Shown one piece after another: positions 28,466-46,634 of a DNA stretch of 64,000 bases. The notes beneath the pieces are model-generated. The model saw only the letters and a program-made list of their open reading frames with translations. It had not been told where the DNA came from and ran no database searches. The translations under genes were made by a program, and so were the position numbers. Source of the DNA: Candidatus Aminicenantota bacterium (GTDB taxonomy: Bacteria > Acidobacteriota > Aminicenantia > Aminicenantales > UBA4085). Every line of letters starts with the position of its first letter. Position 1 is the first letter of the stretch. Location of the stretch: NCBI GenBank assembly GCA_003141555.1, contig PLMN01000029.1:1-64000 (forward strand), given 5' to 3'.

Positions 28466-28942
28466 ATGAGAAAACCGAGAACGGCGACCGTCGCCCTGAT
28501 TGCCTTGGCCGTCGGGCTGGCCATCGGGGCCGCCCAGATCCTCGTCGTCAAGGTCCAGACGACCCAGCTCCGCAACGCCCCCCAGTTCTTCGGGCCGGCG
28601 CTCGCGTCCCTGAAAGCGGGGGACAAGCTCGAGAAGCTCGGCGAGGCGAACGGCTGGGTCCAGGTGAGGACCGCGGCCGGGGTCGTCGGCTGGATCCATT
28701 CGAGCGCCGTGGGCGAAAGCTCCACGACGCTGGCGTCCACGGGGCAGCCGGTCCGGACGCAGGCCACGGCCAACGAAGTCGCCCTGGCCGGGCGGGGATT
28801 CAACCAGCAGGTCGAGGACAGCTACAAGGCCAAGCATGCCGAATTGAGCTTCGTCTGGGTGGACCGGATGGTCCAGATCAAGATCGCGGCGGCCCAGCTC
28901 GAGGATTTCCTCCGGCGCGGCCACCTGGGAGGCGTCAAGTGA
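28466..28942 (+). CDS. Secreted protein with an SH3-like domain
   Basis: The 158-residue protein has an N-terminal signal helix (TATVALIALAVGLAIGAAQ). A bacterial SH3-like domain follows at about 25-90, recognisable from LRNAPQFFG, LKAGDKLEKLGEANGWVQVRT and VGWIHSSAV. An uncharacterised helical tail ends it. Such domains bind cell wall or other envelope ligands. A GAGGAGGG ribosome-binding site supports the start. The stop overlaps the following M48 protease (GTGA), so they probably work together in the periplasm. Confidence 0.8.
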   Translation: MRKPRTATVALIALAVGLAIGAAQILVVKVQTTQLRNAPQFFGPALASLKAGDKLEKLGEANGWVQVRTAAGVVGWIHSSAVGESSTTLASTGQPVRTQATANEVALAGRGFNQQVEDSYKAKHAELSFVWVDRMVQIKIAAAQLEDFLRRGHLGGVK

Positions 28943-29856
28943 GCGCCCCGATAACGGTCTGGCGCGCCGCTCTCGCGCTCCTCGTTGTCTGTCTCCTCGC
29001 CGCCGCATGCTCGGTCATCCAGAAGGGAACGGACATGCTGGGCTCGGCCGGCAATACCGCCGGTACGGTCCAGACCGTCAAGACGGCGGCGGACAAGGTT
29101 CGCAGCTCGTTCGCCGACATCACCGAGGAGGAGGAGTACTACATCGGGCGGTCCGTGGCGGCGATGATCCTGGCCCGCTACCCCGTCTACCAGAACGATG
29201 CCCTGACCCGCTACGTCAACGCCGTGGGCAACGCCGTGGCCCTCTTTTCCGACCGGCCGGAAATTTACGCCGGCTACCACTTCCTCATCCTCGACACGGA
29301 AGAGGTGAACGCCCTGGCCGCGCCCGGGGGGATGATCTTCGTCACCAAGGGTCTGCTCCGCCGGTGCAAGGACGAGGAGACTCTGGCCCTCATCCTGGCC
29401 CACGAGGTCGGCCACGTCGCGGCCAAGCACGGCCTCCAGGCGATCAAGAAGTCGCGCCTCACGGACGCGTTCATGTACCTCGGCAGCCAGGCCGTCCAGC
29501 ACTTCGGCTCGGAGGACCTGGCGAAGCTCACGACCGCCTTCGAGGGAGCGCTGAACGACATCGTCGAGCAGCTGGTCGTGCGCGGCTACGACCGGGCCTC
29601 GGAGTACGAGGCGGACGGATTGGCCGTCAAGTTCGGGGCCCGGACGGGCTATGAGCCGGGGGCCATCGTCCGCTTCCTGAAGACCATGGTCGGCGACACG
29701 ACCAACGCGGCGGGGAAGGGCTGGTTCAAAACCCATCCCTCGCCCGAGGACCGCATCGACCGCGCCGGCCGGGCCATCGCCGCCCTCGGCCCGGCGCCGA
29801 AGATCGACGCCGCGCGGACCCAGAGGTTCGTCCAGTCCGCCGCCACGCTGAAATAG
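28939..29856 (+). CDS. M48-family metalloprotease lipoprotein
   Basis: The 305-residue protein has a lipoprotein signal ending LLAAACS. Its M48 peptidase domain carries HEVGH at about residue 155, AAKHG next to it and the third zinc ligand in SEYEADGLAV. It should be a periplasmic protease of the BepA/LoiP type acting in outer-membrane protein quality control. It starts with GTG, coupled to the SH3-like gene. Confidence 0.88.
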   Translation: MSAPITVWRAALALLVVCLLAAACSVIQKGTDMLGSAGNTAGTVQTVKTAADKVRSSFADITEEEEYYIGRSVAAMILARYPVYQNDALTRYVNAVGNAVALFSDRPEIYAGYHFLILDTEEVNALAAPGGMIFVTKGLLRRCKDEETLALILAHEVGHVAAKHGLQAIKKSRLTDAFMYLGSQAVQHFGSEDLAKLTTAFEGALNDIVEQLVVRGYDRASEYEADGLAVKFGARTGYEPGAIVRFLKTMVGDTTNAAGKGWFKTHPSPEDRIDRAGRAIAALGPAPKIDAARTQRFVQSAATLK

Positions 29857-29896: not shown

Positions 29897-31966
29897 ATGA
29901 GAAATAAGCTTCTCCGCGGACTCCTGGTCGGTTTGGCGGCCGTGCTGGCCGCGGCCGCCCTGGATTCGCTCCACGCGTTCCGCGCCCTCGAATGGAAGAC
30001 CTGGGACGCGCGGATGCGCCTGTTCGCCGATCCCTCTCGCGCGAGCCGGGACATCGTCCTCGTCCTGGTGGACGAGTACAGCCTCGATCTCTATAAGAAA
30101 GAACAAACACTGACGTGGCCATGGCCGCGCGAGATCTACTCCTATATCGTCCGCTACCTGAAATCGGGCGGCGCGGCCGCCTGCTACTTCGATTTTGCCT
30201 TGAGCGACGATGCGATCCGCGGGGTCGCCGACGACCAGGCCCTGGCCCGGGCGGCCGCCGAGGCGGGCAACGTCCTGTTCCCGATCGCCCTGAGCACCGA
30301 CGACAAAGAGAGCGATGAGTCGGCGATCACAGTTTTAAAGCGATTCTCGCTGCCGGCGTCCGCCCCGGCGCGCTCGACCGAGACGTTCCGTTCGATCACG
30401 ACGCCGCTCCTCGACTATCTCCAGGCGGCGAAGGCCGTAGCCAATGTCCGCGCGCTCCCGGACGGGGACGGCATCTACCGGCGCCTGCCGCTTTCTCTCG
30501 CCTTCCGCGACCTCATCCTGCCTTCGGTCCCCCTCGCCCTCGCCGGGTCCGCGGCGCCTGCCTCCGTTCCCACGGACAAGGCGGGCAACATGATCGTCAG
30601 GTTCTGGGGCCCCACGGGGACGTATCGGACCTATCCCATCGCCGCCCTTCTCAACTCGTGGGCCCAGATCCAGGAGGGGAAAGCGCCTCAGGTTCCACCG
30701 GCCGAGTTCGCGGGCAAGACCGTCCTCATCGGGCTGTCCGCCGTCGGCCTGTTCGACCTCAAGTCCAGCCCCTTGAGCGCGGTCATCCCCGGCGCCGAAA
30801 TCGAGGCCGCTGCCCTCGATACCCTCCTTCATAAGAGCTATTTCAAGCCGGCCGCGCCGACCGCGACCTTCGCCCTGGCGCTCCTCTTCGCGGTCGCGGC
30901 CGGGATCGCGATCTCGCGGATCCGCAAGACGGCGTTCGTCGTCGCCGCGTTCGTCCTGTTCCTGGCGCTCCCCGCGGCAGCGGCCATCGTTGCGTTCGCC
31001 GGCGGGACGTGGCTCGATTTCGTCTTTCCCGAAGCGGGGGTTCTTTTCGCCCTGATCGGGGCGTCCGTCCTCAACTATTCCATCGAGGGAAAGGAGCGAC
31101 GGTTCATCAAAGGCGTTTTCTCCCATTACCTGAGCCCGGCCGTGATTGAACGACTGATCGACGACCCCAAGCTCGTCCGGCTCGGCGGCGAGCAGCGGGA
31201 GATCACGTCCTTCTTTTCGGACGTGGCCGGCTTCACCTCGATCTCCGAGCATCTCGCGCCGGCCGACCTCGTCCGCCTGCTCAACGACTACCTCTCGGAG
31301 ATGACCGACCTCATCCTGGACGGGGGTGGGACCTTGGACAAGTACGAAGGCGACGCCATCGTCGCCTTCTGGAACGCCCCGCTCGACATTCCCGGCCACG
31401 CCCTTCGCGCCTGCCGGACCGCCCTGGCCTGCGGGCGTCGGCTGGCCGAGATCCGGCCCGGCCTCGAAGCGCGCTACGGATATGGGCTCCGGATGCGGAT
31501 CGGGTTGAACACGGGGCCGGCCGTCGTCGGGAACATGGGTTCGGGCCGCCGCTTCGACTATACGGCCATGGGAGATACCGTCAACCTTGCCGCCCGGCTG
31601 GAGAGCGCGGGCAAGCAATATGGGGTCTCGCTCCTCGCCGGAGAATCGACCGTGGCCGCGGCCGGCGAGGCGATCCTCGCCCGGGAAGCGGACCTTATCC
31701 GCGTCGTCGGGAAGGCCCGGCCCGTTCGGATTTTCGAGCTCCTGAGCGAGCGTGCCCAGGCATCGGCGGCCGACCTGGAGCGCCACCGCCTTTACGGCGA
31801 AGCCCTCGTCCTGTTCCGCGAGCGCTCGTTGGGGAGGGCGCTGGATGCGTTCGGCGCGCTGGGCGCCGACGCGCTCGCCCAAATCTATGTCGAGCGCTGC
31901 CGCGCGTTTCTGCGCGCCGGGCCGCCCCCGGACTGGGACGGCGTCTTCGACCTGAAATCCAAATGA
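29897..31966 (+). CDS. CHASE2-domain class III adenylyl cyclase
   Basis: The 689-residue membrane protein has one N-terminal helix and an extracytoplasmic CHASE2 sensor (about 35-300, with DIVLVLVDEYSLDLY). Three further helices (about 310-400) precede a cytoplasmic cyclase domain (about 425-605). Both metal Asp residues are present (FFSDVAGF, YEGDAIVAF). The Lys of LDKYEGD and the Asp of FDYTAMGD specify adenine. NLAARLE holds the transition-state Asn and Arg. It should therefore make cAMP in response to an envelope signal. Next genes: an MBL hydrolase after 13 bases, then a cNMP-binding channel. Confidence 0.92.
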   Translation: MRNKLLRGLLVGLAAVLAAAALDSLHAFRALEWKTWDARMRLFADPSRASRDIVLVLVDEYSLDLYKKEQTLTWPWPREIYSYIVRYLKSGGAAACYFDFALSDDAIRGVADDQALARAAAEAGNVLFPIALSTDDKESDESAITVLKRFSLPASAPARSTETFRSITTPLLDYLQAAKAVANVRALPDGDGIYRRLPLSLAFRDLILPSVPLALAGSAAPASVPTDKAGNMIVRFWGPTGTYRTYPIAALLNSWAQIQEGKAPQVPPAEFAGKTVLIGLSAVGLFDLKSSPLSAVIPGAEIEAAALDTLLHKSYFKPAAPTATFALALLFAVAAGIAISRIRKTAFVVAAFVLFLALPAAAAIVAFAGGTWLDFVFPEAGVLFALIGASVLNYSIEGKERRFIKGVFSHYLSPAVIERLIDDPKLVRLGGEQREITSFFSDVAGFTSISEHLAPADLVRLLNDYLSEMTDLILDGGGTLDKYEGDAIVAFWNAPLDIPGHALRACRTALACGRRLAEIRPGLEARYGYGLRMRIGLNTGPAVVGNMGSGRRFDYTAMGDTVNLAARLESAGKQYGVSLLAGESTVAAAGEAILAREADLIRVVGKARPVRIFELLSERAQASAADLERHRLYGEALVLFRERSLGRALDAFGALGADALAQIYVERCRAFLRAGPPPDWDGVFDLKSK

Positions 31967-31979
31967 AGGGAGCGCGGGC

Positions 31980-32804
31980 ATGGAGCTGACATTCTGGGGT
32001 GTGCGGGGGACGTGCCCGATCGACCGCAAGGATGCCACCCGGATCGGGGGCAACACGCCCTGCGCGAGTATTGAGACCGCCCGCGGGGACTGGATCGTCA
32101 TCGATGCGGGCACGGGGATTTATGAGCTCGGGCGGCGCCTGGCCGCGGCCGGGCCGCGGCCGAAGCGCCTCTCGATCTTTTTCACCCATTTCCACCTCGA
32201 CCATGTCCAGGGCCTGCCCTTTTTCGAGCCGCTCCGGGACCCCGGGACGGAAATCGTCTTCTATTCCCCGGCCGAGCCGCGTGACTTGCGAGCGCATCTC
32301 GGCCGGCTGATGGGCGCGCCCTTCTTCCCCGTGGCCTTTGAGGCGACGGCTTCGAAAAAGGAGTTCCGGAGAATCGACGGCCGGACGATCCGCGTGGGCG
32401 GCGCCGCGGTGTCCGCCTGCCCGCTGAACCATCCCCAAGGCTCGGTCGCCTACAAGATCGAAGAGGGCGGGGCGGCCGTCGTCTTTGCCACGGACACCGA
32501 GCCTCCGGCCGGAGGGGTGGATGGTTGGCTAGCCGAGTTCGCCCGTGAAGCGGACGTCCTCGTCTGCGACGCGACGTTCACCCCGCGTGAATATGCCGCG
32601 GGCCGGCAGGGCTGGGGCCACGGCACGTGGCGGGACGGCGCGAAGCTGGCCGCCGCGGCCCGCGTCAGACGCCTGCTTCTGTCCCATTTCAGCGGCTGGC
32701 ATACGGATCGGACGGTCCGGGCGATCGAGCGGCGGGCGCGCGCGGTCTTTGCGGCCTCCGACGCGGCGCGCGAGGGAATGAGGCTCTCTCTTCCGAGCGC
32801 ATGA
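31980..32804 (+). CDS. MBL-fold metallo-hydrolase
   Basis: The 274-residue cytoplasmic protein has the two-metal site HxHxDH (THFHLDHVQG), a further His in LNHPQG, the bridging Asp in FATDTEPP and a terminal His in LLLSHFSGWH. It belongs to the PhnP-like group that includes phosphodiesterases, starting MELTFWGVRGTCP. Substrate unknown. Sandwiched between an adenylyl cyclase and a cNMP-binding channel, it is a candidate cyclic-nucleotide phosphodiesterase, but that is context only. Confidence 0.85.
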   Translation: MELTFWGVRGTCPIDRKDATRIGGNTPCASIETARGDWIVIDAGTGIYELGRRLAAAGPRPKRLSIFFTHFHLDHVQGLPFFEPLRDPGTEIVFYSPAEPRDLRAHLGRLMGAPFFPVAFEATASKKEFRRIDGRTIRVGGAAVSACPLNHPQGSVAYKIEEGGAAVVFATDTEPPAGGVDGWLAEFAREADVLVCDATFTPREYAAGRQGWGHGTWRDGAKLAAAARVRRLLLSHFSGWHTDRTVRAIERRARAVFAASDAAREGMRLSLPSA

Positions 32805-32820
32805 CGAAAGGCGGAGAACG

Positions 32821-34299
32821 ATGACCGACATGGCGGCGGGCAAAGATACGGGCTGGCGGCTGATCGCGGCGCGGACCTGGGTTCCGGCGGCCGTCGTCCT
32901 TCTCATCCTGATCGTCCTGGGAGTCGCCTCGCCCGGCGATGCCCTGCAGTCCTACCTCGAGGCGGGCCTCGTCCTGTTCGGTGCGGTCTTCGTCGTCCGC
33001 CTGGCCGAGGCGGCCGTTCGGGCCTGGTACGCGGGGCGGCGCCGGCCCTATCCGATCCCCGACGTCCTCCGCGGCCTGATCCTCGGCGTCGTCTACATCC
33101 TCATCCTCTTCTACGTCCTCAAGAACATCCTGCGGGTGGACCTGACGGCCTATCTGGCCGGCTCGGCCGTCCTGACCATGGTCCTCGGCCTCGCCTTCCA
33201 GGGCGTGCTGAGCAACATCTTCTCGGGCATGTCGCTCCACTTCACCCGATCGTTCAGCCGCGGCGACTGGGTGAGCGTCGGCGCGCACGAGGGCATCGTC
33301 GTGGACACCAACTGGCGTGAAACGCGCCTTCTCGACCGGCAATCCAACATCATCGTCCTGCCCAACAACATCGTCGCGTCGGAGAAGATCACGAACTTTT
33401 CCCAGCCGGACGCGAAGACCGCGATCACCATCCCGTTCAAGCTCAGCTACCAGGCGCCGGCGGCCGAAGTCCTGGGAATCCTCGTCGAAGCGGCCCGCGA
33501 GTGGCCCGAGGTCCTCGACGCCCCGCCGCCTCTGGCCTACATCCAGAGCTACGACGAGCTCGGCGTCTCCTACCTGGCCAAGTTCTGGATCGGCGATTAC
33601 GGCCGTCGGGATCCGATCATCACGAACGTCGCCCGCCTGGCCTGGTACAAGCTCCGGCGACATGGCCTTGAAATCGCAATGTCGTTCGGCGACCGGATGA
33701 AGGACATGATGCAGGCCGGCGCGCCGCGCGCCGCGGAGGATCAAGAGGCGACGTTCCGCGACCTCCTCCATTCCCCGATCTTGCGCCGGCACGGGGACGC
33801 CGCCGGCGAGCTGATCGTGGCGGAGGAGGGAGTGCGCGCCCTGGCCGCTCTGCTCACTCGCGGCGTCTATACGAAAGGCGAGGTACTCTGCCGGCAGGGC
33901 GAGAAGGGCGCCAGCGCCTTCGTCGTGGCGGCGGGGTCGGTCAAGGGCCAGATCGCTTACGAGGAAAACGGCAAGACCTACATGTCCGAGTTCGCGGTCG
34001 GCCCGGGCGGGATCTTCGGCGAGATGTCGCTCTTCACCGGCATGCCGCGGACGGCGACGGGTGTTATCGCCGAGGACGCGGTCCTGCTCGAGGTCCGGGG
34101 CGAGGATTTCGCCGTGCTCCTCGAGCGCAACCCGGCGCTGGCCGAGGAGATCGCCGAGACGGTGAGCGCCCGCAACGCCAAGAACCGGGAGTTCCTGTCC
34201 AAGATCAAGGAGCTATCCGCGCAGGACATCCAGGCCGGCGTGAGCAAGACGACGGTCCTGGAGCATCTGAAGAGGTTCGTCCGCCGCCTGAAGGGCTGA
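32821..34299 (+). CDS. MscS-family mechanosensitive channel with C-terminal cyclic-nucleotide-binding domain
   Basis: The 492-residue protein has four hydrophobic segments, the last being the MscS pore helix region (LAGSAVLTMVLGLAFQGVLSNI). A beta domain follows (GDWVSVGAHEGIVVDTNWRETRLLD), and from about residue 335 a cNMP-binding fold. The phosphate-binding cassette FGEMSLFTGMPRTAT retains Glu and Arg. It should be an inner-membrane channel gated by cAMP or cGMP rather than, or in addition to, tension. It starts 16 bases after the MBL gene, in the same presumed transcript as the cyclase. Confidence 0.9.
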   Translation: MTDMAAGKDTGWRLIAARTWVPAAVVLLILIVLGVASPGDALQSYLEAGLVLFGAVFVVRLAEAAVRAWYAGRRRPYPIPDVLRGLILGVVYILILFYVLKNILRVDLTAYLAGSAVLTMVLGLAFQGVLSNIFSGMSLHFTRSFSRGDWVSVGAHEGIVVDTNWRETRLLDRQSNIIVLPNNIVASEKITNFSQPDAKTAITIPFKLSYQAPAAEVLGILVEAAREWPEVLDAPPPLAYIQSYDELGVSYLAKFWIGDYGRRDPIITNVARLAWYKLRRHGLEIAMSFGDRMKDMMQAGAPRAAEDQEATFRDLLHSPILRRHGDAAGELIVAEEGVRALAALLTRGVYTKGEVLCRQGEKGASAFVVAAGSVKGQIAYEENGKTYMSEFAVGPGGIFGEMSLFTGMPRTATGVIAEDAVLLEVRGEDFAVLLERNPALAEEIAETVSARNAKNREFLSKIKELSAQDIQAGVSKTTVLEHLKRFVRRLKG

Positions 34300-34372: not shown

Positions 34373-34447
34373 GCGCCTGTAGCTCAGTATGGATAGAGCA
34401 AAGGTTTCCTAAACCTTAGGTCGCCCGTTCGAGCCGGGCCAGGCGCG
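34373..34447 (+). tRNA. tRNA-Arg (anticodon CCT)
   Basis: The acceptor stem GCGCCTG pairs with CAGGCGC, the D-arm has GCTC/GAGC, and the anticodon stem AAGGT/ACCTT encloses loop TTCCTAA with anticodon CCT. The T-arm GCCCG TTCGAGC CGGGC follows. CCA is not encoded. The 3' part from 34405 is the left attachment site of the genomic island and is duplicated at 49171. The gene remains intact because the element restores the same sequence. Confidence 0.93.
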
Positions 34448-34455
34448 CTTCCTTT
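34405..34455 (+). repeat. attL: island attachment site within tRNA-Arg
   Basis: 51 bases starting in the anticodon loop and running past the tRNA 3' end are repeated without mismatch at 49171-49221. This is the classic crossover segment of a tyrosine integrase that uses a tRNA gene. Confidence 0.92.
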
Positions 34456-34651
34456 TTCCCCTATAAGGGCCAAGAAATCAATAAGTTATGGGGGGAGGTC
34501 CGATTTTCCCCTGTCCCCCTTTGTCCGCCCAATTCCGGCCTATTCCGGCGAAAACACGTCACAAAAGTCGACATTGAAATATGCATTTTCTGTCGCTTTG
34601 AGTGAGGATTTTCCCATCGGTTGGAACTACGATCCTGCCCTAGCGCTGAAA

Positions 34652-35353
34652 TTAACCTTCCGTTTTTTCCGTATTCCAATAAATCCAAGTGGAATGAAAC
34701 TGATTTTTTATTATTATATAATCGTCCATCAAATCGATCAGGTGATCAGTTTGGGCTTTGTTAATATGCATTTTTCTCATTAAGTCTCGTTTTCTTAAGA
34801 CCTTTTCCTTTTTAATGAGCTCCCCGAACTTTGACAGAATCATAAAATGCGACGTCAATTGTGGAAGTATCTTCTTAAAGTGCTCATGTATGGGGATATA
34901 AAGAATCGCTTGCAGCGTCTTCATATTATTAAGCCGCTTGATCATCGTTGATGTATCTGGTACCGGCAGCTCTGGTACATTGTATTTTCCATTACTCATC
35001 TCTCGAATTCTTATTTCTTCGGCTTTAGCAAGCGTCTTATCATTTATGCGGAATCTCTCCGTTATGGCAGGAGGCAACTTAATTAGATCATTCATATTTG
35101 GCGGCATAATATTCATCCATTCCCGATCAACACATAAACAAAGCCACAATAAAAAAATATAATATTCATTGAGTGTGTTATGTTTTGGTTTTAATCTATG
35201 ATACAGATATTTTGAAACAGTGTTCGTTCCTTTGTAATGGAGCTCATATCCCTTCCATTCTCTTCGAAACGCCTCACAAAAATCTATCGTTTGTGTATCA
35301 GGGAAAAAAGGTGAATAAATATCTTTAGCCTGAGAAGTATTATCGTATTTCAT
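34652..35353 (-). CDS. Hypothetical protein of the island
   Basis: This 233-residue, AT-rich gene has no signal peptide or membrane helix. It contains a hydrophobic patch (YYIFLLWLCLCV), charged helices in the second half and a C-terminal part (RKRDLMRKMHINKAQTDHLIDLMDDYIII) that could be a winged helix. No family was recognised. It is divergent from the XRE regulator gene, with which it may share a control region, and its base composition differs strongly from the flanking chromosome. Confidence 0.6.
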   Translation of the reverse strand: MKYDNTSQAKDIYSPFFPDTQTIDFCEAFRREWKGYELHYKGTNTVSKYLYHRLKPKHNTLNEYYIFLLWLCLCVDREWMNIMPPNMNDLIKLPPAITERFRINDKTLAKAEEIRIREMSNGKYNVPELPVPDTSTMIKRLNNMKTLQAILYIPIHEHFKKILPQLTSHFMILSKFGELIKKEKVLRKRDLMRKMHINKAQTDHLIDLMDDYIIIKNQFHSTWIYWNTEKTEG

Positions 35354-35434
35354 TTATAATCTTCACAAACCTGTCACAAATTATACCCCTTTATCTTCCG
35401 TTACACCAATTTTGTTTCCTGAGAGAATAATGGC

Positions 35435-35683
35435 GTGAGGTTAGCAATGAAAAACAGCCTTGGCAATAAAATCAGAATGGCCAGATTGCTTTGTCATCTG
35501 ACTCAGGATGAACTATCAAAGGTAACTGGCATCGATCGAGCGCGCTTATCCCGAATCGAAAATAACTTTGTTAATCCCTCTGATCGAGAGAAATCGAGCA
35601 TTTGCAGCGCGATCAGAGTACGTTCTTCGAAAATGGGGTATGACAAAGCGATTCTAATGGAGAACCTAGATGATATCGCATAA
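35435..35683 (+). CDS. XRE-family helix-turn-helix regulator
   Basis: The 82-residue protein (GTG 35435; ATG 35447 is an alternative) contains a Cro/C1-type HTH: GNKIRMARLLCHLTQDELS, then TGIDRARLSRIENNFVNPS. It probably represses the divergent or downstream island genes. It overlaps the next gene by 14 bases. Confidence 0.8.
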   Translation: MRLAMKNSLGNKIRMARLLCHLTQDELSKVTGIDRARLSRIENNFVNPSDREKSSICSAIRVRSSKMGYDKAILMENLDDIA

Positions 35684-35918
35684 TGCTCGTGAATCGGATC
35701 CGGATAGGCCCCGGAGACGGTGGATCACCATTCGAGAAGCAGCAGAATACCTCGGCCTTTCGATAAAGGGCGCCTATGACATGGCCTCCGCTGGCAAGCT
35801 CCCGGCCGCTCGCGTCGGCCGCCTGGTCCGGATCGACGTGAAGGCCCTCGAAGCCGAGCTCGAGCGCCAGGTCTCAGGCCAAGCGCCGGCCGCCCGGGCA
35901 AAGGGCCGCGGAAAATGA
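35670..35918 (+). CDS. Excisionase/MerR-like DNA-binding protein (HTH_17 type)
   Basis: The 82-residue protein has the typical WITIREAAEYLGLSIKGAYDMASAGKLPAARVGRLVRI helix-turn-helix-wing and an Ala/Lys-rich tail. It overlaps the helicase-like gene start (ATGA). Position directly before the replication ATPase suggests a replication or copy-control role rather than excision, but both are possible. Confidence 0.8.
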   Translation: MISHNARESDPDRPRRRWITIREAAEYLGLSIKGAYDMASAGKLPAARVGRLVRIDVKALEAELERQVSGQAPAARAKGRGK

Positions 35919-37348
35919 GCAAGGGCGACCTCGAGCGGGCCATCCTGGGCTCGCTCATTATCCGGCCTCAGTATTTTGAGCAGGCAGATCTCACACCGGG
36001 GCTTTTTTCAAGCGGGCGCTACCGGAAGACGTTTGAGATACTGTCCGAACTTTGGGAAACGACGCGCGAAGAGATCTCCCTGCCCGTCCTGGCCGAAAGA
36101 ATCGGCGGGGAGGATCCGGGGATCTTCGTCGCCAGCCTGGTAGACGGGCTCCATCATTTCACGCCCGGGCAATTCGTCCAGAGCGTTGAATATCTCATGT
36201 GGCTTCGCCGGACGCGTGAGATCGGCCGGGATCTGGCCCATGAGCTCGCCCTCGAAGAGAAGACGGGGCTCCCGGACCGGGCGTCCTGGGCCCGGATATT
36301 TGAGAAGATCGACGGCCTCCGGAAATCGACGGGAAAGCAACCTGGGGCAATCCTCCGGCTTCTCAGCGAAATCGAGCCCCAGACCGTTACATGGACCTGG
36401 CCGAACAGGATCCCCCGCGGGAAGCTCACGCTAATCGTCGGGGACCCGGGGCTCGGGAAGTCCTTTTTCTGCGTAGACCTGGCCGCGCGGATATCTCAGG
36501 GCCGAAAATGGCCGGATTGTCCTGGCCAAGCGGAGCAAGGTGCCGCCCTCCTCCTCACGGCCGAAGACGGCTTGGCCGATACAATCCGCGTCCGGGCCGA
36601 CGCAGCCGGCGCCGACGCCTCCCGGATTATTATCCTCGAAGGCGTCCGGGAGGGAGGGGAAATCAAATCGTTCAACCTGGCCGAACATGTTCCTATCCTC
36701 GAGGCCGTTATTCAGGACCGCGCGGATCTTGCGCTTATCGTCATCGATCCCATAAGCGCATACCTCGGGGACCTGGACAGCCACAAAAACGCCGAAGTCC
36801 GCGGCGCCCTAGCCCCGCTGTCCGCGTTGGCTGAAAAATCAAATGTCTCAATTGTCGGGGTCTCCCATTTGAACAAATCGACGGCCTCCGAAAAGGCCAT
36901 TTACCGCGTCATGGGAAGCCTTTCATTCGTCGCCGCCGCCCGGGCATGTTGGGGCGTCATCATGGACCCGGAGGATCCGGACCAGGAGCATCCATCCGGA
37001 CGCGTCCTGATCCCCGTAAAAACAAACCTCAGCGTACGGCCCGAACCTCTCGCCTTCAAGATCGACGAATCCGCCCGGCTTGTCTATGATCCCCGGACCG
37101 TCCATCTCAACGCCGACGAGGCCATGAATTCGAAGCGGGAGGACAGGGAGCAGCGGTCAATTACCGAGACCTGGCTCCGGGACGTCCTCAAGTCCGGCCC
37201 CCTGGACGTCAAAGAAATCATGAAACAAGCCCGGGGGGAGGCAATCCCGGAGCCCTCAATTTATCGGGCAAGCCAAAAGCTCGGGGTAACGCGTTTAAGA
37301 AGCGGCTCGGGCCCTAACAGTCGGAGCGTTTGGGAGATTCGGGCATGA
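35915..37348 (+). CDS. DnaB-N / RepA-like replication ATPase
   Basis: The 477-residue protein has a DnaB N-terminal-like helical domain (about 1-110, beginning LERAILGSLIIRPQYF). A RecA-fold RepA-type helicase domain follows (about 150-350) with Walker A GDPGLGKSF, ALLLTAEDGLADT, Walker B LIVIDPISAYLGD and SHLNKSTASEKA. A C-terminal winged-helix-like segment (about 395-477) ends it. It probably drives replication of the excised island. Downstream lies an iteron-like repeat cluster. No separate primase gene was recognised. Confidence 0.85.
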   Translation: MSKGDLERAILGSLIIRPQYFEQADLTPGLFSSGRYRKTFEILSELWETTREEISLPVLAERIGGEDPGIFVASLVDGLHHFTPGQFVQSVEYLMWLRRTREIGRDLAHELALEEKTGLPDRASWARIFEKIDGLRKSTGKQPGAILRLLSEIEPQTVTWTWPNRIPRGKLTLIVGDPGLGKSFFCVDLAARISQGRKWPDCPGQAEQGAALLLTAEDGLADTIRVRADAAGADASRIIILEGVREGGEIKSFNLAEHVPILEAVIQDRADLALIVIDPISAYLGDLDSHKNAEVRGALAPLSALAEKSNVSIVGVSHLNKSTASEKAIYRVMGSLSFVAAARACWGVIMDPEDPDQEHPSGRVLIPVKTNLSVRPEPLAFKIDESARLVYDPRTVHLNADEAMNSKREDREQRSITETWLRDVLKSGPLDVKEIMKQARGEAIPEPSIYRASQKLGVTRLRSGSGPNSRSVWEIRA

Positions 37349-37665
37349 GACCCCTCAGAATTCTCAGGTTCAAAATAAGTGATAATTCTTATAATTCTGA
37401 GAAATCTGAGAAATCTGGAAATGTCAGAATTCTCAGACTTATCAGGATTCTCAGAATTCTCATTGAATATAGAGCGAGAAATCTGGCCGCGGGCAGCCGC
37501 CTCTCTGCCCGCTTCATCCTCCCCGGATTGACGGTAGAGCGCCGGACATACAGTCCGCGGGTCATATCTGGAAAATCTGAGGCTCTGTCGACTTTCGTGA
37601 CGACATCGAAACCTCTGGATGTGCGTATCGTCAGTAATATCAATAGGTTAATATTTGAAGAGTAA
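37345..37665 (+). CDS. Doubtful ORF over the iteron-like region
   Basis: A 106-codon frame begins in an ATGA overlap with the replication ATPase stop. Its first half is merely a translation of the short repeats (RILRLIRILRILI), and the rest matches nothing known. Coding status is doubtful; it is listed only because the overlap could allow coupled translation. Confidence 0.2.
   Translation: MRPLRILRFKISDNSYNSEKSEKSGNVRILRLIRILRILIEYRARNLAAGSRLSARFILPGLTVERRTYSPRVISGKSEALSTFVTTSKPLDVRIVSNINRLIFEE
37354..37486. repeat. Iteron-like repeat cluster, possible replication origin
   Basis: The unit TCAGAATTC(TCA) occurs at 37355, 37424 and 37451, with a variant TCAGGATTC at 37442. The related unit CTGAGAAAT is tandem at 37397 and 37406, with CTGGAAATG at 37415 and a last GAGAAATCTGG at about 37476. 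The segment is AT-rich and lies directly after the RepA/DnaB-like gene, as expected of initiator-binding iterons. Confidence 0.5.
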
Positions 37666-37706
37666 TCCACTAAAAAGGTCGAAAAGACAATGCTGAGGAT
37701 CGAGGA

Positions 37707-38027
37707 ATGAACAAAAAAGCGCGAGTCGAAAAGATCGAAAAGACGTTGCGCGTCGCAGCCCTAAAGCAGGAAGACATCGCCATCGAGCGGGGGTTTAGAG
37801 AGTTTTTCGACTTCTATGGTCTCGTTGGTCCTTATGAGCTTTTTAGTGTTCTTGATCTGTATGAACAAACCGGGCTCGATCTGAATCAACGTGTCCGTCA
37901 GTTTCTAGCTGGAATGAAGAGGGCAGAGAAACCGGAAGACATCGACCGCGTCCGGCGGCTTATTGAACGCTGTAAAGCGAAGATGTCCGAGACTACCGGG
38001 TCAAGTGAAGTAGTCATGAAAAGTTGA
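37707..38027 (+). CDS. Hypothetical island protein
   Basis: The 106-residue protein is rich in charged helices (KKARVEKIEKTLRVAALKQ at the start; EDIDRVRRLIERCKAKM near the end), possibly coiled coil. No family was recognised. A GAGGA site precedes the ATG, and the next gene starts 3 bases after its stop, so the two form a pair. Confidence 0.6.
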   Translation: MNKKARVEKIEKTLRVAALKQEDIAIERGFREFFDFYGLVGPYELFSVLDLYEQTGLDLNQRVRQFLAGMKRAEKPEDIDRVRRLIERCKAKMSETTGSSEVVMKS

Positions 38028-38030
38028 AGG

Positions 38031-38441
38031 ATGGAAAAGCTGAATTCAACAAAGAGGCCATGTCGGGCGACGACGACGGACGGGCCCAGCTGTCAAGCCG
38101 CAGCGCTTCCGGGGTCGGATTATTGTTTCTTCCATGACCCGGAACGGGCCGATGAACGAAGGGAAGCCAAGGCCGCCGGCGGGCGCCATGGCAAGATGAA
38201 GACGCTGGCCGCGGACGCGCCGGCCGTCAGGGTCGAATCCTGTCAGGACGTCGTCCGCCTTATATCGGAGACGATCAATCAGGTCCGCCGGGGCGAACTT
38301 GATCCGCGGGTTGCCAACGCCGTAGGATACCTGGCCAACATCCTGATAAAGGCCGCCGAACAGGGCGATATGGAAAAGAGGATCGAACAGCTCGAGGCCG
38401 CGGTGCAAGCGCAGGCCGACGCAGGCAAGGGGTCGAAATGA
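38031..38441 (+). CDS. Small cysteine/histidine-motif island protein
   Basis: The 136-residue protein has an N-terminal Cys/His signature, CRATTTDGPSCQ followed by GSDYCFFHDPE. This probable zinc knuckle is seen in small proteins of phages and integrative elements. A helical C-terminus includes QLEAAVQAQADAGK. Function unknown. It overlaps a further short frame at 38438. Confidence 0.65.
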   Translation: MEKLNSTKRPCRATTTDGPSCQAAALPGSDYCFFHDPERADERREAKAAGGRHGKMKTLAADAPAVRVESCQDVVRLISETINQVRRGELDPRVANAVGYLANILIKAAEQGDMEKRIEQLEAAVQAQADAGKGSK

Positions 38442-38611
38442 CGCGGCGAACATCGGACCCGGCAAAGATCGGCCGCCCCGCTATCCCTCCTAGCGGGTCC
38501 CGGGTTTCCCCTCTTTTCGCCCCGGGGAAGGTCCGGGCCGCCTATTCCCGCGTATTTTACACGGCGGGTGAGAATATGGCCCCGGTCCGGCGTCTATCCC
38601 ATGAGGCCTAG
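38438..38611 (+). CDS. Possible short coupled ORF (57 codons)
   Basis: A frame starting MTRRTSDPAKIGRPAIPP begins in an ATGA overlap with the preceding gene and ends at TAG 38609-38611. It is basic and proline-rich, with no recognised domain. The overlap is the only support. The remaining bases to 38710 show no gene. Confidence 0.25.
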   Translation: MTRRTSDPAKIGRPAIPPSGSRVSPLFAPGKVRAAYSRVFYTAGENMAPVRRLSHEA

Positions 38612-38710
38612 CAATTCGGGCCTAGCCCGGCCCCGTGATCTAGGAAGGCCCGCCGATCCGCTATTGCCTGTTATTTCAAACGCGGACAGATGTATTCATT
38701 CCGCATAGGG

Positions 38711-39229
38711 CTATATTTTGTCCTTTCCTCTTGGCACACTATAAGTAATCATCAAACTATAATCCATATATTGAAGTTCGATTTTCGTAGACGGAAAATA
38801 CCAGGCGACTACAGATTTATTTACAATTCTATCGCTATTGTCCTTAAATGAAGGTGCGCCATATTTTTCCGTAAAGATCGGTTCTAAATTTTTAAAGCGC
38901 ATTTGAAAAAGTCCATACTGCTTATCCGCCGCATAAATCTGTATCATTTTAAGGGTTTTCGCCGTCTTATCCATAGCAAAATAGACGTTATATTTATCGC
39001 CGTTAATATCGTAATTATTAATTCCTATGGAAGCATATAAATTCAATTGATCCCAATCTTGGGCTTTATCTAAATGGACGGCCTCGCCTTTAAATGCTTT
39101 AAGGATTTCGTCCTCAGTCATGCCCCATTTTGCTTCCCTCCATCCTTGCACGTCCTTTAATTGGCCGAAAGTAGGGAGTGCGCAAATAAGACCGAAAAAA
39201 AGGAAGCAGACAATAATTTTGGTTTTCAT
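38711..39229 (-). CDS. Secreted island protein of unknown function
   Basis: The 172-residue protein has a clear signal peptide (KTKIIVCFLFFGLICALPTFG). A mature part follows with alternating strand pattern, including WREAKWGMTEDEILKAF, a pattern seen in small periplasmic proteins of unknown function. AT-rich. A GGAGGG ribosome-binding site precedes the ATG. Part of the minus-strand cargo group 38711-40597. Confidence 0.7.
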   Translation of the reverse strand: MKTKIIVCFLFFGLICALPTFGQLKDVQGWREAKWGMTEDEILKAFKGEAVHLDKAQDWDQLNLYASIGINNYDINGDKYNVYFAMDKTAKTLKMIQIYAADKQYGLFQMRFKNLEPIFTEKYGAPSFKDNSDRIVNKSVVAWYFPSTKIELQYMDYSLMITYSVPRGKDKI

Positions 39230-39303
39230 GGTTCCCTCCTTTTATCTCAATGATACCATAAAAACATAAGTCCCGAAGGTCGAAAGGTCCATCCCGGACC
39301 CGA

Positions 39304-39495
39304 TCAGCCCGGCGAATTAAACTCCCCGGCCTCTGTTTCATCGAAGCCCCGCCCGCAAGCTAGGCAGCGGTAGACAAGGTAGCCGTCCTCTTCGTCCGGC
39401 TCCCCGTCATCCCCCGGCATAACGCGGACCTTTAGCATACCGTCCTCTAGCCGGATCCGGGAGCTCCCGCAAAAAGGACAGGCTTTAGCTTCCAT
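39304..39495 (-). CDS. Small zinc-ribbon protein, copy 1
   Basis: The 63-residue protein has two CxxC knuckles (CPFCGSSRIRL near the start, RCLACGRGFDE near the end) flanking VRVMPGDDGEPDEEDGYLVY. A close paralogue lies at 45042 in opposite orientation, and the two share long identical nucleotide runs. No DNA-binding or enzymatic partner is evident. Confidence 0.7.
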   Translation of the reverse strand: MEAKACPFCGSSRIRLEDGMLKVRVMPGDDGEPDEEDGYLVYRCLACGRGFDETEAGEFNSPG

Positions 39496-39569
39496 GCTGT
39501 TATTATATCCAAGCCCGGCCCCGGCGGACTCGCGTGTGTCTTTTGCGTTTTTTATGGCGTCGGGAAAAT

Positions 39570-39782
39570 CTATTTAAGAATAATGGTTAAACAATAAACT
39601 ACGCCCGCAACTATGAGTATAGCAATAATAAGGCCGATTATATGAACAGGATCTTTAAAGTCTATTCCGCCCGATGATAATTTTTTCGCTTCTTTTCGAT
39701 TAATGGGCTCCCCGCAATTTGGGCAAGTCGGCGCATTCTCTGAAACATCTTTTCCGCAAGCTCGGCATTTGATTAGGCTCAT
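39570..39782 (-). CDS. Zinc-ribbon membrane protein
   Basis: The 70-residue protein has an N-terminal zinc ribbon (CRACGKDVSENAPTCPNCGEPI) and one C-terminal transmembrane helix (IIGLIIAILIVAGVVYCLTIIL). Such small zinc-ribbon anchors are common and of unknown function. AT-rich, within the island cargo. Confidence 0.75.
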   Translation of the reverse strand: MSLIKCRACGKDVSENAPTCPNCGEPINRKEAKKLSSGGIDFKDPVHIIGLIIAILIVAGVVYCLTIILK

Positions 39783-39835
39783 ATTATCCTCCCCTGATAT
39801 TTGTTGTAGACCCTAAGGACTTATCGAACAGATAT

Positions 39836-40597
39836 TTATTTGACTATACAATCGACGCTATGCGTTTCAAATAAATTGTCATTGCTTAGCATTATTCTAT
39901 TACTTTGTTTATTGTCTATTGAGGCCCAAACTAGCCAATAATAATTTTCTTCTCCATTTATTACTTGACGATGGGCTGACGCAACTAGAGCATATTTGCC
40001 CGGCTTGAGCTTGAGAGAAAATTTGCCATCGGCGTCAGTCTTGGCTGTTTGTATCGGCTGAGGCAATCCATCCATATAAAATGGGGCTTCTTTCATCTTA
40101 TTAGATTTAACTAGTATTTCATCTAATTGGAGTTTTTTAACTTGGGCCATATTTCGCAGTTCATCCAATTTTTTCTTTGCGGCTAAATATCTATTTTCGA
40201 GTTCTTTGGCATTATTTGTTGAACCGGCCCCCTCTACGCCCGCAATAAATACCCGCTCATTTGAATTTTTTTCCCTAAGTCTTTCATTTTCCTCTTTTAC
40301 TGCTTGGGCGGTTTCTTGCTCAAGAGCCCCGATTTCTTTCTTTAGGGTCTCCAATTGTGGCGATATTTTATCAAGCTCTGATGTTGCGATTTTAACCTTT
40401 GATTGAATGATTGGGCTTATATCGGTTTCATTAAAAGCCATTACTTCCACAAGGGCGAGCTTGAACGTCTGGGCACCTTTTGTAACTATGAAAATGTCTC
40501 CGTTCAATTCGGTATCAGCCGTGCCTTTTCCCGTTCCTTTACAGCCGTTTGATATTAGGATTCCTAAGAGGACAATCAATAAATACGTTTTTTTCAT
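39836..40597 (-). CDS. Lipoprotein with coiled coil and carboxypeptidase-regulatory-like domain
   Basis: The 253-residue protein has a lipobox (LISNGC). A long coiled coil at about 70-170 is marked by ELDKISPQLETLKKEIGAL and LENRYLAAKKKLDELRN. A C-terminal beta-sandwich-like segment follows (KTDADGKFSLKLKPGKYALVA), which is typical of carboxypeptidase-regulatory-like repeats. Envelope-associated, function unknown. AT-rich cargo. Confidence 0.75.
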   Translation of the reverse strand: MKKTYLLIVLLGILISNGCKGTGKGTADTELNGDIFIVTKGAQTFKLALVEVMAFNETDISPIIQSKVKIATSELDKISPQLETLKKEIGALEQETAQAVKEENERLREKNSNERVFIAGVEGAGSTNNAKELENRYLAAKKKLDELRNMAQVKKLQLDEILVKSNKMKEAPFYMDGLPQPIQTAKTDADGKFSLKLKPGKYALVASAHRQVINGEENYYWLVWASIDNKQSNRIMLSNDNLFETHSVDCIVK

Positions 40598-40815
40598 CGT
40601 TCCCTCCCTGGAGCCTTTAAGGATAAATCCATTATAGGCGGATATTCGAGCTTGCGCAAAAGGGCATATCTTTTTAGATCCCCCGCGCAGCCTCGAAGGT
40701 CCGCTGTCCGCCTTGTGGGGCCTGTCCTAGCCCATTTTCCAGCCCCGCAGGGCCTCCCAGGGCCTCAATTGTGTTTTATCAAGGGAAAATACCCAAAAAA
40801 ATCGTCTAAAAATAC

Positions 40816-41598
40816 TCATGAGGCCGCGGGTATCTTTTCCGGTTGCCTTTGCCGCATGAGGGCGTGTTTCATCCGATAGCTCTCGCCCTCGAACAGCAGG
40901 ATGTGCCCGTGGTGGGCGAGGCGGTCGATCATCGCCGCGGCCATCTGGTCGTCGGTGAAGATCGATCCCCATTTGGAAAACTCCATATTCGTCGTGATGA
41001 TCAGGCTCCTCCTTTCGTAGCTGTCGGAGATGATCCGGAACAGCAGCTGCGCGCCGTGCTTGTCGATCGGCACGTATCCCCATTCGTCCAAGATCAGAAG
41101 TTCGGCCTTCAAGATCATGGCGAGCGTCTTCTCCAGCGTTCCGCCGGCATAGGCCTCCGAGAGGCGAACGACCAGCTGGGCCGCGGTGAAGAAGCGGGTC
41201 CGGATGCCCTGCTCGCAGGCCAGGACCCCCAGCGCCGTCGCCAGATGCGTTTTCCCCGTCCCGACCGGCCCATAAAGGACCAGGTTCTTCTTGTCCTTGA
41301 TGAACGCGCCCCCGGCCAGATCCGCCCGGGACAGATTCGGCGGCAGCCTCAGGTTCTGATATTCGTAGCCCGCGAGCGTCTTGTAAACCGGGAAGCCCGC
41401 TTCCCGCAGATACCGGGCCTTGCGGACCTCTTCCCGGTTGGCCGCCTCGCTCTTCAGGACGCGCAGCAGGAACTCCTCCTGGGCGGCCGAGCCTTCCTCG
41501 GCGCACAGATGGAGGGCCGTTTGGCTGAAGGCGAGCCGTCGCAACAGCATTGAGATCTCTTCCCGCCGCTGTGTACGATCGACTCGGGGCTTTCTCAT
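40816..41598 (-). CDS. istB: IS21 helper ATPase IstB
   Basis: The 260-residue AAA+ protein has Walker A YGPVGTGKTHLA at about residue 107 and ILDEWGYVPID as Walker B. IITTNMEFSKW acts as sensor I. It forms filaments on target DNA and activates IstA. It overlaps istA by 4 bases. Its C-terminus reaches the left inner repeat. Confidence 0.93.
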   Translation of the reverse strand: MRKPRVDRTQRREEISMLLRRLAFSQTALHLCAEEGSAAQEEFLLRVLKSEAANREEVRKARYLREAGFPVYKTLAGYEYQNLRLPPNLSRADLAGGAFIKDKKNLVLYGPVGTGKTHLATALGVLACEQGIRTRFFTAAQLVVRLSEAYAGGTLEKTLAMILKAELLILDEWGYVPIDKHGAQLLFRIISDSYERRSLIITTNMEFSKWGSIFTDDQMAAAMIDRLAHHGHILLFEGESYRMKHALMRQRQPEKIPAAS

Positions 41599-43055
41599 GA
41601 TGGATCCAAGAGCGTCCGGTCATAGGTTTCCAGGTCCGGGCCCTGCTCGGGGGCCGACATCAGGCCGTCGTAGGCGATCCTCGTCGAGATGGCCTGGAGG
41701 CTGAAGGCATCCACCGTTTGCCGCCGGACCGCCTCCTCGAGAGATTCCAGGGCGACCTCCTGCCCGAACGTCGAGATGCTGTCCGAGAGGGCTGAGAGGA
41801 CCCGGCGCAAGTCCGGCCGGTCCAACGCGTCCAGCGATTCCCGAAGCGTTTCGCTCAACCCGGCCCGAAACGGACTGTTCGCCCAGGCCCGCGGCCGCCG
41901 CAGCAGCGTCTGCAGGCTCGTGGCATAATCGGCCGTATCGGTTCGTCCGTCCCCAAACGACCGACGATGGACGGCGAGCGCGCTTGCATCCGGCCGATAG
42001 ACGACGACCGTATGGGCCCGCAGGCCGACCGTCAGCGTTTTCTCGGCCTGCTCCGGCGCGCTGGAGTACCAGTGCCGGCCGTCCAGGCAGAACTTCCCGT
42101 ACCCGTTGGTCCGGACCTTCTCCAGCCGCTCGACCAGGAACGGCCGCTCCGGAAGCGGACTCAGATGCCGGCGCTCCTCGGCCCATAGCTCGCTGATCGT
42201 TAGGGCCTTTTTGTAATGGGGCCGGTCAAAATCCTTCTCCGCCTTCTCGAGAAGCTCCCGGTTCCAGCTCTCCAAGTCCGCCACCTCGGGCATCGGCACG
42301 AAAAAGTTCCGCCGGACGTAGCCGACCTTGTTCTCGACGTGCCCCTTCTCGTGGCCCGCCTCCGGATTGCAGAAGCTCACCGAGAAGCCGTAATGACACT
42401 TGAACCGCAGGAACAGGTCGTTCAGGCTGATCTTGTCCCGGACCCGCCGCCCCACGCCGCCGGCGTTATCGAAGACGATCCGCCGCGGCACCCCGCCGAT
42501 CCAATGAAACACGTCCGCGAGCCCCTGGCAGACGCACTCGGCCGACTCCCCGCCGAACGACTGGAAAAAACCTCCGTTGCTGTGGGGGAAGCTCAGACAC
42601 AGGTACTTGATCGTCCGCTTCAGGCCGCCCTCGAGAACATCCGCTTCCCCGAAGTCCGCCTGCGCTTCCCCCGCCGGCCAGACAAGCTCCAAGTAGCCCG
42701 GCTCGGCTCCCCGCTCCCGCTTCTTCTCCTTCAGGTACCGCTGGACCAGCGGATAGGAACAACGGTACGCTTCCGGGTACTCGGCCTCGAGCCTCTGATG
42801 GACGCGCTTGGCCGTGTGCCGCTGCTTGAACCGCATCCGCCGGTCTTCGGCCAGCCATTCGTCGATCTTCGGCTTCCAGGGATCCAGCTTCGACGCCGCC
42901 GTCTTCTTGCCCAGGAGGCCGCCGTTGAAGTCTTCGACCTTCATGTACTTGGCCACGGTCTTGCGGTTGAGGCTGAGCCGGCCGGCGATCTCCTGCGGCC
43001 CCAGCCCTTGTCGTTGAAGTTCCTTGATTTCGTCGATTTGATTCATTCGAAGCAT
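41595..43055 (-). CDS. istA: IS21 transposase IstA
   Basis: The 486-residue transposase has an N-terminal HTH (EIKELQRQGLGPQEIAGRL). An RNase-H-like DDE core follows, with Asp in QADFGEADV, Asp in IVFDNAGG and Glu in GHEKGHVENKVGYVRR, all present. A C-terminal beta-barrel region completes it. Full length, with no frameshift, so the element may be active. Confidence 0.93.
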   Translation of the reverse strand: MLRMNQIDEIKELQRQGLGPQEIAGRLSLNRKTVAKYMKVEDFNGGLLGKKTAASKLDPWKPKIDEWLAEDRRMRFKQRHTAKRVHQRLEAEYPEAYRCSYPLVQRYLKEKKRERGAEPGYLELVWPAGEAQADFGEADVLEGGLKRTIKYLCLSFPHSNGGFFQSFGGESAECVCQGLADVFHWIGGVPRRIVFDNAGGVGRRVRDKISLNDLFLRFKCHYGFSVSFCNPEAGHEKGHVENKVGYVRRNFFVPMPEVADLESWNRELLEKAEKDFDRPHYKKALTISELWAEERRHLSPLPERPFLVERLEKVRTNGYGKFCLDGRHWYSSAPEQAEKTLTVGLRAHTVVVYRPDASALAVHRRSFGDGRTDTADYATSLQTLLRRPRAWANSPFRAGLSETLRESLDALDRPDLRRVLSALSDSISTFGQEVALESLEEAVRRQTVDAFSLQAISTRIAYDGLMSAPEQGPDLETYDRTLLDPS

Positions 43056-43214
43056 GTCTCCTCCCTGTAGGATGTTATCCTACAGGGCTTTGCCCCGCGA
43101 TCTTCATGGGTATTTTTGACGATTTTTCTGTCCATCGCCCGTTGATCATTCCGTCCATTTTCCCTATATCACAAAGACTCAATAGCCGCCTTTAGCCTTC
43201 CCCTGGCCGGATTT

Positions 43215-43436
43215 CTATTTCCGCAGCTTTTTCGCCCGCCCCGTCAACAGCTCGAAGAGGCCCGCGGTTATGCCGTTCGCCTTCGGCCCGAGTAAGCTTG
43301 CCGTCAATCCGGCCTGGGGATCTGCGTCAATGGCCAGGACCGCGCGGCCGGCCAGGGCCAAGTCCGCGGCCAGGTTCGCCGCCGTTGTGGTTTTAGTGCA
43401 ACCGCCCTTTTAATTTGCTACTGTATAGATCCTCAA
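43215..43436 (-). pseudogene. parA: Truncated, nonsense-mutated parA partition ATPase
   Basis: From TTG 43436, preceded by AAAGGAG, the frame reads LRIYTVAN, then a TAA stop (43412-43410) where ParA proteins have Gln. It continues KGGCTKTTTAANLAADLALAG and AIDADPQAGLTASLLG. This is the deviant Walker A (KGGxxKT) and Walker A' region of ParA. The frame ends at 43215 after 74 codons, against about 250 in ParA, close to the IS21 right end. No parB is visible. It indicates plasmid-like ancestry of the island. Confidence 0.8.
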
Positions 43437-43634
43437 GGCCGGATTCTCCTTTCATGCCTTCAAGATAGCCGAGGATAATTGCTTTAAAAATGATAGTTTA
43501 CAAGGGGCCGATTTCCGGTCATTCCGACTTTTAGCTTTTTTCCGTTGATTGTTTAGTTTTGATAGGTTACAGAGGGTTCAAGTTGACATAACAGATATTA
43601 TACGCCACGACCCGCACTCTTGGCGTCCCTTCAT

Positions 43635-43991
43635 TTATGCCTCATTCCGGCGGATTCGTGCCAGGTATTCCGTCAGCGTCCGCCTGGGAATTCCCCATGA
43701 TTCCGCCGTCTTGTTGATCCCCCCTTCCGCCAGGTCCGCGAATAGCTTCCCTTGGTCCAGCTTCCGCAACCTTGACCGCTTCGCTGATGACCTGGCCTTG
43801 ATCCCATAGGTCCGAAGTCCCCTCCGGACAGCGTCCTTTGAACATCCCAACGTCGCGGCGACATCCCGGACAGACATCCGATCCCTAACATACAGCTTGA
43901 CCAGATCCGCCTTCGATGGCGCCGGCCCAGCTGGCGGACGTCCCCGCTTCGGCATCTGACCGATGGCTTCCTGATACTTGATCCGGCCCAT
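43635..43991 (-). CDS. Helix-turn-helix DNA-binding protein
   Basis: The 118-residue basic protein has two HTH-like units: KADLVKLYVRDRMSVRDVAATLGCSKDAVRRGL and DLAEGGINKTAESWGIPRRTLTEYL. The first resembles resolvase/homeodomain-like HTHs. It probably binds island DNA. It lies upstream of the parA remnant on the same strand. Confidence 0.65.
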   Translation of the reverse strand: MGRIKYQEAIGQMPKRGRPPAGPAPSKADLVKLYVRDRMSVRDVAATLGCSKDAVRRGLRTYGIKARSSAKRSRLRKLDQGKLFADLAEGGINKTAESWGIPRRTLTEYLARIRRNEA

Positions 43992-44101
43992 AAGAATTAT
44001 TCCCCGGTCAATCGTCCTTCATCATGAGGCTGTATCATCGCCGTCATGGCGTCTTTTCGGCCGGCCAAGCGGCGGGCTGGTCCCGGCCCCTGGCGCCTCA
44101 T

Positions 44102-44836: not shown

Positions 44837-45041
44837 AATACCTCCTTTGACAGATTATAGAATTCGTTCAAGTCCTGACCTTCGTCCAGGATAATCTGAC
44901 ACGGCGCCGGAAGTTCGATGGCTAATTTTCCTCCCATATAGCTAGTTGCACTAATTCTCAATTGGAAGTGAGATATTGTCAAGTTGAGAACATAGCAGCT
45001 ATGCTAACCTAATGGAGACAGAGTAACATTAGGGTTAGATC

Positions 45042-45248
45042 ATGGACGATAAATTAAGCTGTCCGTTTTGCGGGAGCTTTAATATCCGTCTACGGGAAGG
45101 GCTGCTAAGGGTCCGCATTATGCCGGAAGATGACGGGGAGCCGGACGAAGCGCGGGGCTACCTAGTCTATCGCTGCCTAGCTTGCGGGCGCGGCTTTGAT
45201 GAAATAGAGGCCGAAGGCCCGGCGCCCGGGCTGAGTAGGACGCCTTGA
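45042..45248 (+). CDS. Small zinc-ribbon protein, copy 2
   Basis: The 68-residue paralogue of the 39304 protein is in opposite orientation. It shows the same CPFCGS...RCLACGRGFDE layout and the shared DDGEPDE core. The two copies flank the lipoproteins, IS21 and parA remnant. It is GC-richer than the adjacent lipoprotein genes. Confidence 0.7.
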   Translation: MDDKLSCPFCGSFNIRLREGLLRVRIMPEDDGEPDEARGYLVYRCLACGRGFDEIEAEGPAPGLSRTP

Positions 45249-45296
45249 CTTTTATCCCATAACGGACGTATTCAGGGAACGGCTGAAGAGGGAACA

Positions 45297-46616: not shown

Positions 46617-46634
46617 TAAAATGGGGGGAGTGCT

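Follow-up and report, generated by a model that had tools for sequence, protein, structure and literature searches.

What does a bacterium gain from an adenylyl cyclase gene that is followed, almost without spacing, by the genes for a hydrolase and for a channel with a cyclic nucleotide-binding (CNB) domain? The question is raised by a locus on contig PLMN01000029.1, of which positions 1 to 64,000 of the forward strand were analysed (this whole 64,000-nucleotide stretch is the window below), in an Aminicenantes genome of the Acidobacteriota (G000; 3.79 Mb, 97% complete). A previous reading of the DNA without database searches (the sequence-only reading) had placed at 29897–34299 three open reading frames (ORFs), encoding a CHASE2 adenylyl cyclase, a metallo-β-lactamase (MBL)-fold hydrolase and an MscS-type channel gated by cyclic nucleotide monophosphates (cNMPs), and had suggested that they make up a complete cyclic AMP (cAMP) loop. 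We confirmed the coordinates and the Pfam identities, each match lying over its family cut-off: the three ORFs are all on the + strand and are separated by gaps of 13 and 16 bases. The conserved set proved to be larger, comprising five genes that almost certainly form one functional unit, and on balance we favour its interpretation as an envelope-signalling circuit that runs from cAMP to a channel and is reset by the MBL protein.

A five-gene block found in two phyla

Among 59 related genomes (G000 included; metagenome-assembled genomes, MAGs, which are incomplete), all three genes were present in 27 and none in 22, with pairwise Fisher p-values for co-occurrence, which ignore phylogeny, ranging from 2.5e-8 to 6.9e-12. 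The genes are adjacent in a single order at every locus where the contig permits, and the loci that we read directly show constant order and strand, neighbouring genes either overlapping or lying tens of bases apart. This adjacency is far beyond chance. In the named channel loci, which overlap the genomes of the 59-genome count so that the two counts are not independent, the MBL gene lies directly upstream of the channel gene in 35 of the 35 cases with upstream sequence, and the cyclase gene is present in 34/34 loci where the contig reaches. The same holds for two further genes: where the contig reaches, an M48 metalloprotease gene is present in 28/28 loci and an SH3b homologue lies directly upstream of it in 25/25. 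Clustering of the flanking ORFs likewise made the SH3b and M48 genes part of the block, while the upstream RecD-like helicase gene and the downstream genes vary. The fixed triad of the sequence-only reading thus keeps its order and adjacency across the order, and is really a set of five, its two upstream members being equally conserved.

An Eisenbacteria-type phylum also has the five-gene set, in the same order, in three of seven genomes (L091, Candidatus Eisenbacteria; L092; and L239), so that the synteny extends to a second phylum. The lack of a conserved neighbourhood, which the sequence-only reading had named as one possible refutation, is therefore not what we observed. A promoter and terminator scan gave no clear operon boundaries, and we found no published account of this fixed gene set in open-licence papers.

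The CHASE2 cyclase and its predicted envelope partners

The cyclase (29897–31966, + strand; 689 amino acids) combines a CHASE2 domain (PF05226; E-value 7.5e-45, 153.9 bits vs a cut-off of 26.3) with a Guanylate_cyc domain (2e-19). Conservation was assessed in alignments of 23 cyclase homologues (45–75% identity to that of the window), 26 MBL homologues (40–73%) and 24 channels. As the sequence-only reading had supposed, the adenine-specifying residues are all in place: Lys482/Asp554, together with the metal-binding Asp442/Asp486 and the transition-state residues Asn563/Arg567, are invariant in the 23 homologues. Production of cAMP by this enzyme is well supported by these residues and is very likely. 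The G000 genome also holds a second class III cyclase (L231 1915–3522, G000:C24), which has an FHA- and GAF-like N-terminus and adjoins a Ser/Thr kinase gene.

The SH3b protein (28466–28942, + strand) has an N-terminal hydrophobic segment that would act as signal or anchor, a bacterial SH3_3 domain (PF08239, 4.6e-11) and a conserved C-terminal segment, GFNxQVE. Its gene overlaps by 4 bases that of the M48 metalloprotease (28939–29856, + strand), a predicted lipoprotein with a lipobox-like LAAAC, an HEVGH zinc motif and an HP plug that occurs as THP; the lipobox is found in most homologues. The protease is a member of PF01435 only (8.6e-31), its nearest NCBIfam models both falling below cut-off (BepA, 84.0 vs 570 bits; LoiP, 48.2 vs 365). 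LoiP and YcaL of Escherichia coli are lipoproteins of the outer membrane (PMC7950410). Like E. coli BepA and LoiP, the protein of the window has HEXXH and the conserved HP plug in its M48 domain; unlike them, it misses both family cut-offs, is without a TPR domain and is tied to a cyclase operon.

These features, together with a CHASE2 domain lying outside the membrane, suggest an envelope input, for which there is a precedent in Sinorhizobium meliloti, where the CHASE2 adenylyl cyclases CyaD1, CyaD2 and CyaK are activated via the outer-membrane protein NsrA (PMC13001267). Both systems fuse an extracytoplasmic CHASE2 sensor to a class III cyclase. They differ in that the S. meliloti enzymes act via Clr, a transcription factor of the CRP family, whereas the effector here is a channel and no CRP was found; the M48 and SH3b partners are likewise new relative to S. 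meliloti. We regard a stimulus from the envelope as an even chance, and infer that the CHASE2 domain is the target of the M48 and SH3b proteins.

The MBL-fold hydrolase

The MBL protein (31980–32804, + strand; 274 amino acids; Lactamase_B_2, PF12706, 2e-19) carries at residues 69–75 the motif THFHLDH, which fits [T/S]HxHxDH. The sequence-only reading had called it a two-metal hydrolase. In the alignment of the 26 homologues, none of H70, H72, D74, H75, H151 and D172 varies, and H236 is conserved in at least 90%. With an AlphaFold2 model (pLDDT 91.6) as query, Foldseek ranked RNase Z first (1y44, E 1.2e-17) and YhfI second (6kns, 2.8e-16; TM-score 0.71–0.72 by query length at about 17% identity), with Apyc1 lower (7u2r, 1.6e-9); searching the PDB sequences by profile gave a concordant result. 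Assigning the substrate from the HxHxDH motif alone was rejected, as RNase Z has the same motif.

The sequence-only reading took a role as cAMP phosphodiesterase to be without established precedent in this subgroup. Precedents do exist: YhfI of Bacillus subtilis prefers cAMP and cGMP (PMC9117128), and a related group of phosphodiesterases, marked by the [T/S]HxHxDH motif, is defined by Rv1339 and Corynebacterium glutamicum CpdA (PMC9293780). The MBL protein shares this motif, PF12706 and a similar fold with Rv1339, CpdA, YhfI and Apyc1. Unlike Rv1339, CpdA and YhfI, it scores far below the cut-off of NF041851, the NCBIfam family of cNMP-degrading enzymes, and its activity is a predicted one.

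In the MBL tree, all module MBLs of the Aminicenantes fall into one clade (SH-aLRT 97), which includes the MBLs of four genomes (G030, G039, G041 and G047) that have lost the module's cyclase and channel; a constraint grouping the module MBLs without these four fits worse (p-AU 0.04). The branching of the tree matches the families of the order, reflecting mainly vertical inheritance. The MBLs of the second phylum form a clade of their own; a shared origin with the Aminicenantes MBLs is possible, at a support of 25. The four genomes hold an alternative cluster (L226 6336–10608; also L227, L228 and L229), composed of an FHA-GAF cyclase divergent from a single-domain CNB protein, an AI-2E/PerM-type permease and the module-type MBL; the cassette of its CNB protein has GD in place of GE. 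The best functional hint is thus a genetic one: a single MBL clade has persisted in two contexts, each with a cyclase, a cNMP receptor and a membrane transport protein, that are unrelated to one another. Taken with the fold and the characterized relatives, it makes cNMP degradation by the MBL protein plausible.

The MscS-type channel as probable cyclic nucleotide receptor

The channel (32821–34299, + strand; 492 amino acids) matches cNMP_binding, MS_channel_2nd and MS_channel_3rd (PF00027, PF00924 and PF21082; 1.9e-17, 2.2e-16 and 3.1e-5, respectively), all over cut-off. Four helices are predicted (residues 10–35, 40–72, 81–102 and 109–142), the last of them pore-lining, and are followed by the MscS beta domain, a linker and a C-terminal cNMP-binding domain (residues about 335–455) with the cassette FGEMSLFTGMPRTATG. 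The phosphate-binding cassette, described as intact by the sequence-only reading, is so throughout: Gly400, Glu401, Arg410, Thr411 and Ala412 are invariant in the 24 channels and remain so after adding those of L091 and L092 from the second phylum. These residues support cNMP binding well, and we consider it very likely; that the channel is also gated by the ligand is probable. Thr411, which follows the cassette Arg, was considered as a discriminator between cAMP and cGMP and is not decisive.

A search of the whole G000 genome with PF00027 matched the channel alone, and no CRP was found by it. In 14 of the 59 genomes (G000 and 13 relatives), no cNMP_binding domain other than that of the channel turned up, and no CRP, in a count of PF00027 domains in incomplete MAGs outside which other cAMP receptors, such as some GAF domains, would fall. 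It is possible, and we put it forward tentatively, that the cAMP of these bacteria has just one CNB-type receptor, an MscS-type channel, with cyclase, hydrolase and envelope sensor fixed alongside.

Bacterial cyclic nucleotide-gated (bCNG) channels of the MscS superfamily are known, to judge from titles cited in PMC4560390 (Caldwell et al., 2010; Ss-bCNGa, Malcolm et al., 2012). Like them, the channel of the window joins the pore and beta domain of MscS to a cNMP-binding domain at the C-terminus, with an intact phosphate-binding cassette. Unlike the described bCNG channels, it shares a fixed operon with a putative hydrolase and a cyclase of its own, and no other CNB protein was found in the genome.

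A proposed circuit and its alternatives

The circuit that we propose has a computed basis in the gene set, the residues, the folds and the channel as the only CNB domain found. A signal from the cell wall or outer membrane would reach the CHASE2 domain by way of the SH3b protein and the M48 lipoprotein, which would reside in the periplasm or the outer membrane, and the cyclase, once signalled, would make cAMP. The nucleotide would bind the C-terminal domain of the channel and open it, or ease its opening, allowing efflux of ions or solutes, until hydrolysis by the MBL protein resets the circuit. The stimulus, the ligand in vivo, the sign of gating and the MBL substrate are the elements that we infer. 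The complete loop envisaged by the sequence-only reading is supported in part: the residues speak well for the making of cAMP and for the binding of cNMP to the channel, the MBL step is plausible, and the osmotic role that it raised is conjectural.

Several observations count against this interpretation. The MBL protein falls below the cut-off of NF041851 (56.6 vs 400 bits) and also below the curated RNase Z cut-offs (84 bits vs 252 and 293), and with both missed the sequence leaves its substrate unsettled. Most relatives of the protein beyond the order are solitary, with no adjoining cyclase (46 single homologues in other Acidobacteriota have no cyclase context), which likewise leaves room for another substrate. 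The structure model of the channel is moderately confident (pLDDT 78, pTM 0.50), and G000 carries a second class III cyclase, of the FHA-GAF type. Lastly, two genomes (G017 and G042) keep SH3b, M48, cyclase and MBL genes without a channel gene nearby, and two others (G037 and G028) keep SH3b, M48 and cyclase genes without MBL or channel.

The strongest rival accepts the unit as real and gives the MBL protein another substrate, RNase Z-like, PhnP-like or an envelope-derived phosphodiester; cAMP would then be removed elsewhere or by dilution, and the MBL protein would be an output or maturation enzyme. The missed cut-offs, the solo homologues and RNase Z as nearest fold and profile all speak for it. 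We nevertheless consider it unlikely, since the MBL gene is strictly kept between those of cyclase and channel and, in four genomes, next to a CNB protein and a cyclase that are both unrelated to those of the module, and since its length of 274 amino acids is near that of YhfI, the second-ranked fold. The proposal that the MBL protein is a cAMP phosphodiesterase is plausible, favoured by the YhfI-like fold and the Rv1339, CpdA and YhfI precedents and weakened by the NF041851 score and the solitary homologues.

The sign of gating could also be the reverse of that proposed, cNMP inhibiting or desensitizing the MscS channel so that it is held shut, or its tension threshold set, while the envelope is intact. 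We think this doubtful. The canonical CNB fold usually activates known ligand-gated channels, which argues for opening. The inhibitory alternative draws its weight from a sign of gating that is not readable from sequence and from published bCNG members that differ in their tension response, according to titles cited in PMC4560390.

That the genes are neighbours by inheritance only, in an old gene order without functional coupling, would agree with an MBL tree that follows taxonomy, and the synteny is to that extent partly shared descent. We judge it very improbable as a full explanation, given that the flanks changed and the five genes did not, that the set recurs in a second phylum, that reading frames overlap in many loci, and that cyclase and channel, and MBL and channel, were gained or lost together (the 27 and 22 of 59 genomes given above, again ignoring phylogeny). 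Weakest of all is a Pycsar-like abortive infection, in which a phage triggers the cyclase and a CNB-linked membrane effector kills the cell: the layout of cyclase and CNB-linked effector is similar, and both domains match PycC and PycTIR models, yet only over generic cyclase and CNB regions and with no full-length pair of PycC and PycTIR/PycTM matches, for which reason membership was rejected, and unlike Pycsar the set has an invariant adenine-type Lys/Asp active site, an extracytoplasmic envelope sensor, an M48 protease, its own putative hydrolase as off-switch, mainly vertical inheritance as traced by the MBL tree, and no defence genes seen beside it.

Variant loci and neighbouring elements

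In G037, a two-helix potassium-channel-like gene (Ion_trans_2 with TrkA_N/TrkA_C; L225 9612–10601) lies 150 bases past the cyclase gene, in the usual place of the MBL and MscS genes. A genome of another Acidobacteriota family, G171, has MBL, CHASE2 cyclase and M48 genes together (L205 4366–8421) in an altered order (MBL-cyclase-M48) and without a channel; among the MBL homologues in other Acidobacteriota, it alone joins these three. Because of the variants in G017, G042, G037 and G171, the SH3b-M48-cyclase part looks like a core sensor whose output can be lost, and possibly exchanged.

The chromosome-level MAG bin34 (CP070750.1; L069 10991–15381) has a second cluster, CNB-cyclase-CNB, just downstream of the five-gene set. 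In the window, the module is directly followed by an integrated element of ~14.8 kb (34420–49211) at a tRNA-Arg(CCT) gene (34373–34448), bounded by exact direct repeats of 26 bases (34420–34445 and 49186–49211) and encoding a tyrosine integrase (48042–49154); its G+C content is mostly lower, at 46–59% vs about 65%.

Implications

Each part of the set has known relatives, among bCNG channels, CHASE2 cyclases, MBL phosphodiesterases and M48 lipoproteins; what appears to be new is their fixed combination. To our knowledge, the physiological partners of bCNG channels have not been established. Here a conserved operon unites the making enzyme, the probable breaking enzyme, the receptor channel and probable sensor partners, and so offers a defined system in which both the physiological input to a cNMP-gated MscS channel and its output can be tested, while supplying a substrate hypothesis for a large uncharacterized group of MBL proteins. 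Bacterial cAMP has been studied mostly as a signal for CRP-type transcription factors. Should the channel indeed be the single receptor, these bacteria would possess a dedicated cAMP pathway from envelope to ion flux without a transcription factor, and its layout would be a bacterial counterpart of cyclic nucleotide-gated channel signalling in animal sensory cells.

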